In this document: piece by piece, positions 13,397 through 19,142 of the stretch
Layout of the letters: every line of letters starts with the position of its first letter
Position numbering within the stretch: the first letter of the stretch is position 1
Origin: an uncultured Verrucomicrobiota bacterium
Lineage (GTDB): Bacteria > Verrucomicrobiota > Kiritimatiellia > Kiritimatiellales > Tichowtungiaceae
Assembly: GCA_903826865.1 (NCBI GenBank)
Contig: CAIKGD010000068.1
Location: forward strand, 1-35,493
Length of the DNA stretch: 35,493 nucleotides
Direction of reading: 5' to 3'
The notes under the pieces: model-generated
The model's input: only the letters and a program-made list of their open reading frames with translations
What the model was told of the DNA's origin: nothing
Databases searched by the model: none
Program-made: the position numbers and the translations under genes

Positions 13397-14596
13397 ATGA
13401 ATACAGACGAACAGCTCAAACGGCTCACTGCCCGCCATGTGGATCTTTTTTCCGTCGGCGAACTGAAGAGGAAACTCGAAGCCGCCGCGAAGGAAAAACG
13501 CAGCCTGCGCATCAAATACGGCGCCGATCCCTCTGCGCCGGACATGCATCTCGGTCATGTGGTCGGGCTGAATAAACTGCGCGAATTTCAGGATGCCGGC
13601 CATATCGTGGTTTTCATCATTGGCGACTTCACCGGCATGATCGGCGATCCGTCCGGCAAATCAGCCACCCGCCCGGCGCTTTCGCGTGAGCAGGTTGCCG
13701 CCAACGCTGAAAGTTACAAACAGCAGGTTTTTAAAATCCTTGATCCGGCGAAAACCGAAGTACGCTTTAATTCGGAATGGCTCGGCGGAATGAAGTTTGA
13801 AGATGTAATCCGTCTTTCTGCGCATGTGACAGTCGCTCAATTGCTGGCGCGCGACGACTTTTCGAAACGCTACGCTGACAATCGCCCGATCTCTCTGGTC
13901 GAGTTTCTCTATCCGCTCGTTCAGGCCTATGACTCCGTCATGGTCCAAGCCGATGTCGAACTCGGCGGAACCGACCAGCTTTTCAATCTGCTGCTCGGCC
14001 GCGAATTACAGAAGGTTTACGGTCAGGAGCCGCAGGTGGTCATGACGCTTCCGCTCATCGAAGGACTCGATGGTGTGCAGAAAATGAGCAAGAGCCTTGG
14101 CAACTACGTTGGAGTCAACGAGTCGGCCAAAGATATGTTCGGCAAGCTCATGAGTGTCAGCGACGAACTGATGTGGAAATATTTTCTGTATGTTCTCTGC
14201 CGCGACCCGGCGGAAATCAAATCCATGCAGGCCAAGGTCGCCTCCGGCGAACTGCATCCGCGCGCCGTCAAAGACGAGCTGGGCCGTTGCGTGGTTGACC
14301 GGTTTGCCGGTGCCGGCGAAGGGTTGAAAGCCTCCGATGAATTCGCCCGTATCTTTTCCAAGAACGAACTGCCGGACGATATGCCCGACCTGAAGCTGTC
14401 TGGCGACACCGGAATCATTGACCTCGTTATGAAAGCCGGGTTTGCGCCGTCCAACAGCGAAGCCCGCCGCCTCATCCAGCAGGGCGGAGTGCGCATCAAC
14501 GATGAACAGATTTCTGACGTCAAAGCGGTCATTACGCCAGCCGACGGCATGATCCTCAAAGTCGGCAAACGCAAGTTCGCCCGCATCGTTTGTTAA
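13397..14596 (+). CDS. tyrS: tyrosyl-tRNA synthetase
   Basis: TyrRS (399 aa) is a class I aminoacyl-tRNA synthetase charging tRNA-Tyr. The HIGH box is HLGH at residues 51-54 within [20 protein letters not shown]. The KMSKS box is K229-MSKS within [17 protein letters not shown]-terminal S4 RNA-binding domain ([20 protein letters not shown]) is present. The HLGH form and the [19 protein letters not shown] block resemble the TyrZ-type branch rather than the E. coli type. The ribosome binding site is weak (GCGGATC) and the ATG follows a terminator by 13 bases. Confidence 0.95.
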
Positions 14597-14619
14597 ATCA
14601 ATGATTTGGGGAGGTTAAA

Positions 14620-14970
14620 ATGAGCGTTATTGTTGGGCGTTTTTATTTCAAGCTGACTGAGAACGGTAATTTGCTCGGTGAGTATTCAAATAATATTACC
14701 CAGAAGGCTTATACAGAAAGTGCCGTTCGCATCGAAGCTGGCAGAAATGAATTTAGCGGAGACTATCATTCGGCTTGGGTCGAGGACGGTAAGGCGATTT
14801 ATGCGAAGCTTGTCATTGGGGAGTCTGTTTTTGGGAAAATCTATAGTCTGAAATGGGAAGAGAAGAGCGGCGTGGCGCTTTTCGTAGGAAGAGGAATGTT
14901 GGTTGACGGAATTCTGATCGGCAACTACAGCAACGACCTTGAATACGTAACCCCGGGTGGAAGTCACTAG
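14620..14970 (+). CDS. hypothetical protein with repeated G-x-L-x-G-x-Y-S-N motif
   Basis: I do not recognise this 116-residue protein. A strong GGGGAGG site 6 bases before the ATG supports translation. There is no signal peptide or membrane segment. Two short related stretches, GNLLGEYSNN near the start and GILIGNYSND near the end, flank a middle of alternating hydrophobic and polar residues (GDYHSAWVEDGKAIYAKLVI), which suggests a small all-beta protein. It follows tyrS by 23 bases and may be co-transcribed with it. Confidence 0.65.
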   Translation: MSVIVGRFYFKLTENGNLLGEYSNNITQKAYTESAVRIEAGRNEFSGDYHSAWVEDGKAIYAKLVIGESVFGKIYSLKWEEKSGVALFVGRGMLVDGILIGNYSNDLEYVTPGGSH

Positions 14971-14994
14971 TGAGTTGCTGATAGAAGCTGGAAT

Positions 14995-15043
14995 GTGGAA
15001 AAGGCATCTCCCCTCTTCAAAGTAGCAGGGATGCCGCTTCCAC
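14995..15043. repeat. decayed paired palindrome, copy 2
   Basis: GTGGAAAAGGCATC at 14995-15008 faces GATGCCGCTTCCAC at 15030-15043 (12 of 14 complementary). The right half, read in reverse, shares GTGGAAGCGGCATCC with the single hairpin after clpX at 34165. The stems are imperfect, so this looks like a degenerate copy of the paired-hairpin family. The rest of the 300-base stretch 14971-15270 holds only a short palindrome (TTTCCA-5-TGGAAA at 15051-15067) and no convincing gene. Confidence 0.5.
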
Positions 15044-15270
15044 CTTCCAGTTTCCAAAGTCTGGAAAACCGGTCGCTTACAGGACGATCCAAAAGCTATG
15101 GAGAAGTTCATAGTAGAGGGTATTGATCTGTCAGCCGAGAATGGAGATACGTTGGACGGCGATGGGAAATAGCGCGCCGCTTCACTCTGGCCATTCTTCG
15201 CGCGTCATGGCGGAAGTTCATTGGTGCTTTAAGTTCGACTTAGTTTCACTCTACAGTTAAGAACTCCGGC

Positions 15271-16539
15271 ATGAATTTGGTCATTCTAAAAAAAGGTCGC
15301 GAAAAAAATCTGCTTCAGCGGCATCCGTGGATTTTTTCCGGCGCGATTGAGCGGGTAGCGGGCGATCCAAATTCCGGCGAAACCGTGACCGTTTGTTCGT
15401 TTGACCGTAAACCGTTGGCACAGGCGGCGTGGTCGCCACAGTCGCAGATTGCCGCCCGCGTCTGGAGCTTCGACCCGTCGACGGTGATTGACGCCGGATT
15501 TTTCCGGACGAAGCTGCAAAATGCAATTGCCGCCCGTTGCCATCTAACAGATAAGGAGTTTTTATGTGGCGCAGGCGACTCGCCTGCGAAATGTTGGCAG
15601 ACGAGGGCGTCTGCCCCACCGTCCAATGCAAAACACTTCAATTCCAACGCGCTCCGGCTGGTTGCGGCGGAATCCGACGGGCTGCCCGGCCTCATCATTG
15701 ACCGCTATGCGGATTGGCTGGTCTGCCAGTTTCTTTCCGCCGGTTCCGAGCATTGGAAAGAGACGATCACCGGAATTTTGCAGGAGCTTTTCCCCGGACT
15801 GTCTATCTACGAACGCTCCGATGTTTCTGTGCGCGAGAAGGAAGGCTTGCCATCGCGTTGCGGCGTTCTGGCCGGCACGGAGCCGCCGGAACGGGTCGAA
15901 ATCAGCGAAAACGGCATGCGCCTGCTGGTTGATATTAAAGGCGGCCACAAGACCGGTTACTATCTCGATCAGCGCGACAGCCGTGCGGCGGTGCGCAACT
16001 GGGCGTCCGGACGCGATGTGCTCAACTGTTTTTCCTACACCGGCGGGTTCGGCGTAGCCGCGCTGCTCGGCGGAGCTACGCACGTGACCCAAATGGACAG
16101 TTCCGGCCCGGCGCTTGAGATTGCCAAGCAGAACGCAGAACTGAACGGACTCGACCCAACGGCTTCAGAATATATCGATGGCGATGTCTTTAAGGAACTG
16201 CGCAGCTTCCGCGACTCGCGGCGCGACTTTGACCTCATCATTCTTGATCCGCCAAAATTTATCGAATCGCGCAGTCAGCTCGAGGGCGGAGCGCGCGGCT
16301 ATAAAGACATCAACCTGCTGGCGTTTAAGCTGCTGCGTCCGGGCGGACTGCTTTTCACTTTTTCCTGTTCCGGGCTGATGGAGATGCCTCTGTTTCAGAA
16401 GATCGTTTCGGATGCGGCTTTAGACGCCGGACGGAGCGCGCAGATTCTGGCGGTTTTAAACCAATCGCCGGATCATCCGGTCGCACTCAATTTTCCGGAA
16501 GGAGCCTATCTTAAAGGTCTTCTTTGCCGCGCGGAATAA
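15271..16539 (+). CDS. rlmI: RlmI-type 23S rRNA (cytosine-C5) methyltransferase, with in-frame repeat insertion
   Basis: This class I SAM-dependent methyltransferase (422 aa) belongs to the RlmI/PUA-domain family, whose E. coli member makes m5C1962 in 23S rRNA. An N-terminal PUA-like domain (ILKKGREKNLLQRHPWIFSG) precedes the central HKTGYYLDQRDSRAAVR, the SAM-binding VLNCFSYTGGFGVAALLGGA, the catalytic ILDPPKF and a late FTFSCSG. The usual length is about 396. The excess of about 26 residues falls near positions 98-124, where a palindromic element (15566-15619) is translated as CGAGDSPAKCWQTRASAP. The reading frame is otherwise intact. Exact rRNA target is inferred from family only. Confidence 0.88.
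   Translation: MNLVILKKGREKNLLQRHPWIFSGAIERVAGDPNSGETVTVCSFDRKPLAQAAWSPQSQIAARVWSFDPSTVIDAGFFRTKLQNAIAARCHLTDKEFLCGAGDSPAKCWQTRASAPPSNAKHFNSNALRLVAAESDGLPGLIIDRYADWLVCQFLSAGSEHWKETITGILQELFPGLSIYERSDVSVREKEGLPSRCGVLAGTEPPERVEISENGMRLLVDIKGGHKTGYYLDQRDSRAAVRNWASGRDVLNCFSYTGGFGVAALLGGATHVTQMDSSGPALEIAKQNAELNGLDPTASEYIDGDVFKELRSFRDSRRDFDLIILDPPKFIESRSQLEGGARGYKDINLLAFKLLRPGGLLFTFSCSGLMEMPLFQKIVSDAALDAGRSAQILAVLNQSPDHPVALNFPEGAYLKGLLCRAE
15566..15619. repeat. paired palindrome inserted in frame within rlmI, copy 3
   Basis: The 54-base element (18 codons) runs from GTGG to CCAC. Its left hairpin is CGCAGGCGA-C-TCGCCTGCG (15570-15588, 9-bp arms) and its right hairpin GGCAGACG-AGGG-CGTCTGCC (15596-15615, 8-bp arms). 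Read inward, the two halves GTGGCGCAGGCG and GTGGGGCAGACG differ by changes that are compensated across each stem. Its length is a multiple of three and it contains no stop in the rlmI frame, so the host gene survives. Confidence 0.75.
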
Positions 16540-16544
16540 AGTTT

Positions 16545-16608
16545 GTACAGCCGTTTGCTCGTCAAACGGCTTATAACGGCAGGGCCGTTTGCAAGCAAAC
16601 AGCCGTAC
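16545..16608. repeat. paired palindrome, copy 4, after rlmI
   Basis: Left hairpin AGCCGTTTG-CTCGT-CAAACGGCT (16549-16571) and right hairpin GGCCGTTTGC-AA-GCAAACAGCC (16583-16604) are bounded by GTAC on both sides (16545-16548 and 16605-16608). Read inward the halves start GTACAGCCGTTTGCT and GTACGGCTGTTTGCT, again with a compensated stem change. It begins 5 bases after the rlmI stop and may act as its transcript end. Confidence 0.7.
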
Positions 16609-16653
16609 CCAAAGTGCCTGCTTGAAGGGGCTTCTCTGCAGTGGGAATAAAAG

Positions 16654-16682
16654 TTTCCAAACACTGGGAAAATGCGTATACA
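16654..16682 (+). promoter_or_regulatory. possible promoter of the first BcsL/CelD-type gene
   Basis: TTTCCA at 16654-16659 and TATACA at 16677-16682 are 17 bases apart, each matching consensus at 4 of 6 positions. The -35-like box is part of a small palindrome TTTCC-8-GGAAA (16654-16671), so a regulator may bind there. The gene starts at 16718 with AGAGAGGG upstream. Confidence 0.35.
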
Positions 16683-16717
16683 GCTATCCGTATTTGAATT
16701 ACAGCAGAGAGGGTTGA

Positions 16718-17926
16718 ATGAGCATCGTTTGTAAAAGTCCTGAAATGGGGTTTGAGCTTCCCGAACCGGTCTGTACGCCGCACGGTACCCGTCTGGAAGT
16801 GATTCGCGATTTCGAAGAGCTGCAAAAGCATGCGGACGCGTGGAACCGGCTGGTTACAGAGACCGGACAGCGCCCGGAGATGTCTCATGCATGGGTCGCC
16901 ACCCATCTTGAAACCCGTCTGAACCCCGGTGACAGCTGGTTTTGTCTGCTGGCCTATGATGATCAGCAGCTCACCGGTGTACTGCCTGTTGTCACCGTTC
17001 CGCGCCGCTGGCCGGGCCGGAAGAAATGCCTGCGGTTTGAAACACCGTACGACATTTTTATGACCGGTGCGGTTGAAGCCCTGATGCGCCGGGGCTGTGA
17101 AGAAAATGTGTTTCCGCTTTTTCTAAAATACCTGTGGAGTATCCCCTGCGATTGCTGCTGCCTGCGTATCCGCGGCCTGCCGTGTATACGGCTGCCGGAT
17201 TTGCTCAGCAGGCGTTTCTGCCGCGGCAGCCGTCCGGTAACCGACACAGATGGCAGCGAAAGTTTTATTGAAGTGCAGGGCAGCGCGGAAAACTACCTCA
17301 GCACACTTTCTAAAAAGTTCTTCACCAACTATCGCCGAGTCGGACGGCGCATTCAGGAGCAGCCCGAGGTCCGTTTCCGTTTTGAAACCGGCAATGCGGA
17401 GATCAATACTGAAAAATTCATGGACATTGAACATCAGAGCTGGAAGGCGCAGCGCAAAACCTCCATCCGCTCCGATGAATCGTATATAAAATTTTTCCGC
17501 CTGCTGACAAAACGTCTGGAAGCGCAAGGCTGGCTGCGCTGGGCCTTTCTTGATATCGCCGGCGAACCTGTCGCCGGACAATTCATGGCGCAGAGCGGTG
17601 ATACACTGTATGTCGTCAAAATCGGCTATAACGAAAAATTCTCGAAGCTGTCGCCCGGTTCGGTGCTTTTCGGGCATGTCATCGAGAAGACTTTTGAGTC
17701 CGGCGGGGCAAAGGAACTTAACTTTATGTCCGGTTATTCGTGGCTGAATGATTGGAATGTCCAGATACGTCCGATCGCTAATATTGCCTTTTTCCCGGCC
17801 AGCGCCCGTCGCTGGGGACTTTGCAAACAGCCGCTGCAGCTGCGCTCGCTGATCAACCGGAATCCGAAGCTGAAGAAAGTCGTTGAAGGTTTTTCCGACC
17901 GCCTGCTCAACAGGGCGGACGCATAA
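16718..17926 (+). CDS. BcsL/CelD-type GNAT acetyltransferase (FemAB-like)
   Basis: This 402-residue protein resembles the BcsL/CelD group of double-GNAT-fold acyltransferases linked to exopolysaccharide or cell-envelope modification. Typical parts are the N-terminal HADAWNRLVTETGQRPEMSH then AWV, LLAYDDQQLTGVLPVVTVPR, the central LSKKFFTNYRRVGRRIQEQ, and the late LDIAGEPVAGQFMAQSGDTL then YVVKIGYNEKFSKLSPGSVL. Unusual is the cysteine cluster CDCCCLRIRGLPC near residue 143. Substrate unknown. The gene is convergent with a paralogue at 17958-19142 (31 bases between the stops). Confidence 0.75.
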   Translation: MSIVCKSPEMGFELPEPVCTPHGTRLEVIRDFEELQKHADAWNRLVTETGQRPEMSHAWVATHLETRLNPGDSWFCLLAYDDQQLTGVLPVVTVPRRWPGRKKCLRFETPYDIFMTGAVEALMRRGCEENVFPLFLKYLWSIPCDCCCLRIRGLPCIRLPDLLSRRFCRGSRPVTDTDGSESFIEVQGSAENYLSTLSKKFFTNYRRVGRRIQEQPEVRFRFETGNAEINTEKFMDIEHQSWKAQRKTSIRSDESYIKFFRLLTKRLEAQGWLRWAFLDIAGEPVAGQFMAQSGDTLYVVKIGYNEKFSKLSPGSVLFGHVIEKTFESGGAKELNFMSGYSWLNDWNVQIRPIANIAFFPASARRWGLCKQPLQLRSLINRNPKLKKVVEGFSDRLLNRADA

Positions 17927-17957
17927 AATTCAAAAGATTGGAAACTTCGTAAAACGG

Positions 17958-19142
17958 TTATCGCTCCGTATCGAATTTATGAACCTTTCCGGACTGAATA
18001 ATCAGTGTTAACAGGTTCGAGAAAACAGGAATTTTTGGAAAAACAATCAGATGATAAAGGGGCCTTCTCTGAACATTCCATTTTGACAATTCCGGCGGGC
18101 CGGATACCAGATTCACTTCATCAAATTCTCCCGAATCAAAGGCCGCCTGAATCACTTTGAGCATCAGCAGATTGCCCGGAGAACATGCGATATACTCGGC
18201 ATCGTAGCCCATTTTCAGAATGTAAAGGGTGCGGGTATTCCGCATGGCATAGTGTGCGGCGATGGTTTTATCGCCGCTTTCCAGAAAACTGAAGGCCATC
18301 AAATCTTGTCTGGAAAGGCCCTCCGCCGCGGCTTCAAATGTTACAGCGCTGCTCGGATAGTCTTTGATAGAAGAGCTTTTCTGCCCCTTCCAGTTCCGGT
18401 TTTCGACATCCAGAAAACGACCGGTGTTTTCCTGCGCGGAACGGGTATTTTCACAGAAGACAAAGCGGGACTCCGGAACTTTTTCCAGCTCGCGGAAGGC
18501 TCTTTTCAGGTTTTGCCGGAATTTTGCGGACAGGCCTGAAAAATATTCTTCTCCTTTTCCTGCCACCGGGATGAAAGCCTCAAATCCGGCCGGTTTTTGC
18601 ACCACAGACATTCTGTGTTTTTTACCGGCGAAATATTTCATAGAGGCATAATGCTCCGGAATGTGCTTAAGGCTGAGGTACGGGGAAACCGCCGGGATGT
18701 GATTCAGGTAATCCAAAAAAACACCAAAAATATCCTCCCGGCCGGGAAGCGTCAGGCAGTCTGTTCCGCTGGTGTGCGCAAAATGGTTCGGCAGTTTAAA
18801 CAGTTGCAACGAATGTGTCATGAAACGGTACGAGTACCCGGCTACTAATGGCAGAATCCCGATTACCCGGTCGTTTTCATAGGCGAACAGGCATAGCCAC
18901 TTTTCCGGCGGATTGACCAGGTTTTCAAAAAACGCGCTCATCCACGGGTAGGAAAGAAGCGGCGACAGCCGGTCTGCCTTTCTAAACAGTTCATTCCAGT
19001 CGTTCGCATGGTCCGTTAGCTCATCGAAGGTTCTCACATCCGCCAGCCGGATGCCTGCCGGCGGTTTGTATTCCCAGTGGTCGGGCAATCCGTACTGCTT
19101 TGATATAACCCGCGACAGAATTTTTTTTATGTGCTGTTTCAT
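17958..19142 (-). CDS. second BcsL/CelD-type GNAT acetyltransferase
   Basis: This 394-residue protein has the same architecture as its tail-to-tail neighbour: DHANDWNELFRKADRLSPLL then SYPWM, LCLFAYENDRVIGILPLVAG, LSAKFRQNLKRAFRELEKVP, and FLESGDKTIAAHYAMRNTRT then LYILKMGYDAEYIACSPGNL. The two are clear but well-diverged paralogues. I chose ATG 19142 (MKQHIKKIL); a longer frame from GTG 19265 adds 41 residues without family character, and neither start has a strong ribosome binding site. It lies 160 bases downstream of the MFS gene on the same strand. Confidence 0.72.
   Translation of the reverse strand: MKQHIKKILSRVISKQYGLPDHWEYKPPAGIRLADVRTFDELTDHANDWNELFRKADRLSPLLSYPWMSAFFENLVNPPEKWLCLFAYENDRVIGILPLVAGYSYRFMTHSLQLFKLPNHFAHTSGTDCLTLPGREDIFGVFLDYLNHIPAVSPYLSLKHIPEHYASMKYFAGKKHRMSVVQKPAGFEAFIPVAGKGEEYFSGLSAKFRQNLKRAFRELEKVPESRFVFCENTRSAQENTGRFLDVENRNWKGQKSSSIKDYPSSAVTFEAAAEGLSRQDLMAFSFLESGDKTIAAHYAMRNTRTLYILKMGYDAEYIACSPGNLLMLKVIQAAFDSGEFDEVNLVSGPPELSKWNVQRRPLYHLIVFPKIPVFSNLLTLIIQSGKVHKFDTER

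Follow-up and report, generated by a model that had tools for sequence, protein, structure and literature searches.

An in-frame REPIN in rlmI of an uncultured Verrucomicrobiota bacterium, most likely copied in by a RAYT embedded in frame in cca

The rlmI gene of an uncultured bacterium of the Tichowtungiaceae (Kiritimatiellales) contains an additional segment which we interpret as a REPIN, most likely copied in by a RAYT transposase that is itself embedded in frame within that genome's cca gene, and tolerated in a loop of the enzyme. We give this reading a probability of about 0.85. The window, which is the whole stretch of DNA analysed, is a contig of 35,493 nt. In the mechanism that we propose, a mobile, non-autonomous element built from an inverted pair of REPs, with GTGG at both outer ends, would have been copied into rlmI, most likely by the HuH/Y1 single-strand transposase in cca. 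It would have fallen in the helix-strand loop which follows the PUA domain, at about residues 91–121, and RlmI would keep working with a disordered loop of 26–31 residues. The insertion probably survived because it lies in a loop, keeps the frame and is free of stop codons whichever of the six frames is read.

The palindrome in rlmI

The gene rlmI, which codes for a 23S rRNA m5C methyltransferase, occupies positions 15271–16539 of the plus strand, an ORF of 422 aa. An earlier note on this DNA had placed a palindrome in its reading frame at 15566–15619. The palindrome is there: these 54 nt, GTGGCGCAGGCGACTCGCCTGCGAAATGTTGGCAGACGAGGGCGTCTGCCCCAC, form a double hairpin on the plus strand, assigned as a REPIN from its fold and its repeat family, and they are translated as CGAGDSPAKCWQTRASAP, residues 99–116 of the ORF. 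The element can be written as GTGGCGCAGGCGACTCGCCTGCG-AAATGTT-GGCAGACGAGGGCGTCTGCCCCAC, two halves around a spacer of 7 nt. REP 1 (15566–15588, plus strand) has the GTGG tag followed by the hairpin CGCAGGCG-ACT-CGCCTGCG, while REP 2 (15596–15619, minus strand) is inverted and has the hairpin GGCAGACG-AGGG-CGTCTGCC followed by CCAC, which is GTGG on the minus strand. There are two hairpins of 8 bp and a closing GTGG/CCAC stem of 4 bp. As DNA it folds with -20.9 kcal/mol, against a mean of -9.6 for shuffled sequences (z -5.6), and none of 200 shuffles was as good. The rlmI copy is the most diverged of all copies, with a loop of 3 nt in REP 1.

The element has no stop in all six frames, and the same is found in the eight copies tested (8/8), but only in 3.4% of the 54-mers of the window. 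A selection of codons for six open frames was considered and rejected: 25% of random double hairpins with an equal G+C content are also open, so that this feature is largely compositional.

As RNA the fold is very stable (-31.9 kcal/mol, z -3.9). It might then be thought that the palindrome is kept because it acts in the mRNA as a regulatory hairpin of rlmI or makes translation pause, or else because its loop alters the enzyme. However members of the same family are spread over many genes of unrelated function and over intergenic sites, no T-run for a terminator follows the hairpin, Rfam gave no match in positions 14000–18000 and the congeners manage without the element. We consider this explanation very unlikely.

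The insertion and its host protein

The rlmI product has the PUA_3 and Methyltrans_SAM domains of Pfam. The RlmI model PRK15128 matches it with E 7e-154, yet the score is under the cut-off of the model. E. coli RlmI (3C0K) is the nearest solved structure and the best fold match, and rlmI has no second match within its own genome. The product had been described as about 26 residues longer than the family norm, which agrees with the comparison with E. coli RlmI: the latter is shorter by 26 codons, as query residues 96 and 126 align to residues 97 and 100 of the 3C0K chain. A gap in close relatives had also been named as a sign of insertion, and it is found in G005, G008 and G013, the three congeners whose complete RlmI could be compared. 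Their proteins are about 90% identical and continuous across the site, where they lack 93 nt (31 codons), approximately at positions 15541–15633 of the plus strand, with edges uncertain by a few codons.

The excess had been equated with the palindrome. It is true that the element lies inside the insert, but the insertion exceeds the 54 nt of the REPIN by 24–39 nt. This additional part, which consists of a left piece CATCTAACAGATAAGGAGTTTTTAT and a right piece CGTCCAATGCAAAACAC, has no BLAST match elsewhere in the genome; it could be older than the palindrome. The excess length, and the fact that three congeners with a complete RlmI were compared, leave some room for another reading, in which the segment has belonged to the RlmI of this lineage since ancient times and was lost by the congeners. 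Nevertheless the segment is missing from E. coli RlmI and from 13/13 aligned relatives, distant ones included, and its sequence matches a repeat dispersed in the genome. An ancient origin is refuted for the palindrome itself and we find it most improbable as a whole.

The dN/dS of rlmI against its congeners is 0.09–0.10, with 0.06–0.09 in most pairs of congeners. We see no sign of decay, because we do not find the gene above most congener-congener pairs. RlmI is under purifying selection. In the AlphaFold2 model the mean pLDDT is 88, about 88–90 outside the disordered stretch, and residues 95–121 are the sole run of three or more residues with a pLDDT below 50. The segment is therefore predicted to loop out. 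We infer that RlmI is active with the insert, and the added loop is probably neutral.

The repeat family in the genome

The copies of the element were counted from BLAST and pattern searches. In the genome (G000) there are 13 BLAST matches, with 81–96% identity outside the element itself; its pattern has 7 exact matches, against none for a reversed-pattern control. The cores of the copies measure 54–56 nt and the GTGG/CCAC ends are present in 8/8 copies caught by the core pattern. One copy in frame is found in pabB (peptide VGQTPSSARFPQAGAPAP) and one in leuS (VGQTPPSAILPQAGAPAP), while alaS has two, CGAGAPACGKTADEGVCP and a close variant of it; the names of these three genes are our own reading of their sequences. 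A search for similar peptides in other proteins had been proposed, and these are such cases. Four intergenic sites also hold copies and there are further ones around the RAYT. The total is about ten, and five of the roughly nine dispersed copies lie in frame in conserved genes. They vary in orientation and reading frame, and the absence of stops from all six frames of the element makes this possible.

The window has a single copy of this family, contrary to the claim that the same type of repeat is also found between genes there. Just downstream of rlmI, at 16547–16611, there is another double hairpin, which begins and ends with GTAC. Exact matches to its first 28 bases are found at three other places and a nearly exact one at a fourth. 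It was examined as a member of the rlmI family and rejected: the layout is the same, but the sequence is unrelated and no matches are shared.

When the element was compared with 288 genomes of the class, matches appeared in G000, G007 and G008, and weakly in G025. The first two are those which have the sister RAYT type described below; the match in G008 is read as a REPIN remnant at the cca site. In alaS, two loops carry the GTGG family in G000 and G007, GTAG-tagged repeats in G008 and G013 and a third type in G012; for the in-frame copies of alaS, leuS and pabB in general, the loops of congeners are either empty or differently filled. Within a genome the copies in the alaS loops resemble each other, and between these groups they are dissimilar or similar only in part (L120–L124). 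This turnover may be due either to repeated hits or to an overwriting of resident REPINs by the prevailing family.

A RAYT in frame within cca

On contig C42 of G000 the matches of the element cluster around a Y1 transposase. It is a RAYT found in frame within the gene of the CCA tRNA nucleotidyltransferase and flanked on both sides by REPs of the rlmI family (locus L067, 3360–5393, minus strand). The ORF of 677 aa starts with the PolyA_pol head and the RNA-binding domain, followed by a REP peptide, the RAYT, further REP peptides (VAQTPSPAEK...WQTRASAPP) and finally the HD and C-terminal part of cca. The rlmI peptide, CGAG...WQTRASAPP, corresponds to the left and right ends of this arrangement minus the transposase. 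The RAYT gives PF01797 above the cut-off, and the fusion matches NF047646 with E 2.7e-19 and 69.5 bits, below the curated cut-off of 80. The HuH motif and the YIxxNP tyrosine are kept, and PNHVH is invariant among the RAYTs compared. Pfam gave no intein splicing domain in the fusion at E 0.01, so that it is presumably unspliced. Its AlphaFold model (mean pLDDT 57, pTM 0.40) is too poor for use.

The presence of family REPs around this RAYT leads us to infer that it moved the element into rlmI, although similar REPs may have been moved by a RAYT since lost. A repeat like the Rickettsia palindromic elements, unrelated to RAYTs and with an unknown route of spread, would look alike, since in that case in-frame palindromes in housekeeping genes also give a new peptide loop. 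However the GTGG tags at both ends and the REPs at the sides of the RAYT speak against it, and the Rickettsia repeats are reported to be tagged CGTC and to have no dedicated transposase (PMC3733652). We think that such an origin is very improbable. An artefact of assembly or binning might also be suspected in a metagenome-derived genome in 88 contigs. But the flanks are those of an ordinary in-frame rlmI, and in G007 too members of the family lie in frame, both in the alaS loops and next to its own cca RAYT; an artefact has a practically negligible probability.

The cca gene of G007 has the same RAYT construction as G000, with 76% identity and the same REP family around it. Within the genus at least eight genomes have an empty cca site, G008 has only a REPIN there and four genomes have a RAYT; at least six genomes from the order's other family also have the site filled by a RAYT. 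A palindrome-coded peptide without RAYT is found at this site in G008 (L094) and G024 (L113), which may be either a remnant or a precursor. In G036 (L109) the insert contains a C-terminal piece of RAYT plus REP peptide in several tandem copies (KENPAKAHLKPKTYRLGNG...). The tree of cca, with the insert removed, demands at least seven changes of RAYT presence. In this tree G000 and G007 are not sisters, a starred branch being placed between them, whereas their RAYTs are sisters with support 100/99. Such a mismatch would result either from site-specific exchange among genomes or from the sorting of old alleles.

RAYTs in frame in other genes

Stop-free RAYTs with host domains on both sides, confirmed by Pfam, are also found in PriA, XseA, HypF and a B12/radical-SAM DUF4080 protein. 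Other confirmed hosts are an Eco57I-type methylase, ValS, LeuS and a glycosyltransferase. The genomes concerned are spread across the phylum. Among the RAYT matches listed, about 39 lie in frames of at least 500 codons, a number which is an upper bound because frames may extend by chance. In a tree of 28 in-frame RAYTs, most of them from different genomes, the host label requires four changes for five host types. This is the minimum possible, and it indicates that RAYTs sort by host site and not by genome.

In two families of the order there are RAYTs in priA, inserted at about the same point of the gene and belonging to two RAYT lineages (L070, L072, L076, L078–L084, L088). Three of them (L078, L081, L084) have the REP-coded peptide NVDATPSSRL in frame within the RAYT, and in L084 the catalytic tyrosine is gone (QHIEDNP).

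In the open-licence PMC literature we found no description of whole RAYTs in frame within conserved host proteins; what is described there are REPs inside genes, those of RAYTs included. It is conceivable, at slightly less than even odds, that in Kiritimatiellota and other Verrucomicrobiota RAYTs are intein-like passengers, REP-flanked and stop-free, which are fixed in particular loops of conserved proteins (among them those of cca, priA and xseA), are inherited and also move from one genome to another without a change of site, while each one seeds and overwrites the in-frame REPINs around it in its genome. If so, it would be explained why the REP families of the alaS loops differ between congeners and yet match within a genome.

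Comparison with known systems

REPINs are two inverted REPs around a short spacer which form one hairpin structure; they are dispersed and tied to RAYTs (PMC3116915, Bertels and Rainey 2011). The rlmI element shares these features: it has an inverted pair with a GT[AG]G foot and a short spacer, dispersed copies in low number and a RAYT in the genome, flanked by REPs. It differs from the REPINs of Pseudomonas, which were described from extragenic DNA and count in the hundreds (PMC3116915), since here there are few copies and about half of them are in frame.

In RAYT subclass 2.4 the REPs have a GT[AG]G "double foot", and some RAYT genes contain REPs in frame (PMC6006769, Quentin et al. 2018). 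Here too we find an element that starts with GTGG and finishes with CCAC, the PNHVH and YIxxNP motifs and in-frame REPs in the RAYTs embedded in priA. The motifs of the cca RAYT and its double-foot REPs agree with this subclass, an assignment which comes from motifs and not from placement in a tree. The difference is that here an entire RAYT lies in frame within a host protein; the same paper left aside proteins of unexpected length, taking them for fusions or errors of annotation (PMC6006769). Intragenic GTAG REPs, for example in Opitutus terrae, form in-frame dimers of 20–30 codons in conserved genes (PMC3733652, Di Nocera et al. 2013). Our REP pairs are similar and belong to the same wider bacterial group, but a RAYT inside a host ORF does not appear in what the text of that paper says on REPtrons.

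REPINs, intragenic REPs, double-foot REPs and in-frame REPs in RAYT genes are already published, and the rlmI copy alone is of a known type. What seems new, judging from open-licence papers, is the whole RAYT in frame in a host gene together with the REPIN in rlmI. Inteins with homing endonucleases are mobile in-frame sequences, found patchily at one conserved site of essential proteins, with a DNA-cutting enzyme inside. The cca RAYT resembles them by being in frame, patchy at one site and with an enzyme inside; it differs in that Pfam reported no splicing domain. The empty, palindrome-only and RAYT-filled states of a single site in one genus offer a natural series for the study of insertion and excision.

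According to PMC8266576 there is no evidence that tnpAREP is mobile, and two points are open: the mechanism by which REPs spread, and the reason for the behaviour of RAYT genes, which resembles that of housekeeping genes more than that of transposons. A RAYT in frame in an essential protein would not be lost by frameshift or stop without harm to the host, and therefore it should persist in a housekeeping-like manner.

The likeness to Rickettsia palindromic elements proposed in the earlier note holds as an analogy, in both cases in-frame palindromes adding a peptide loop to functional genes, but not as kinship: our repeats are tagged GTGG and linked to a RAYT, those of Rickettsia are reported to be tagged CGTC (PMC3733652). 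For protein evolution, the agent of such palindrome-coded loops is still missing in Rickettsia, while here a likely one can be named.
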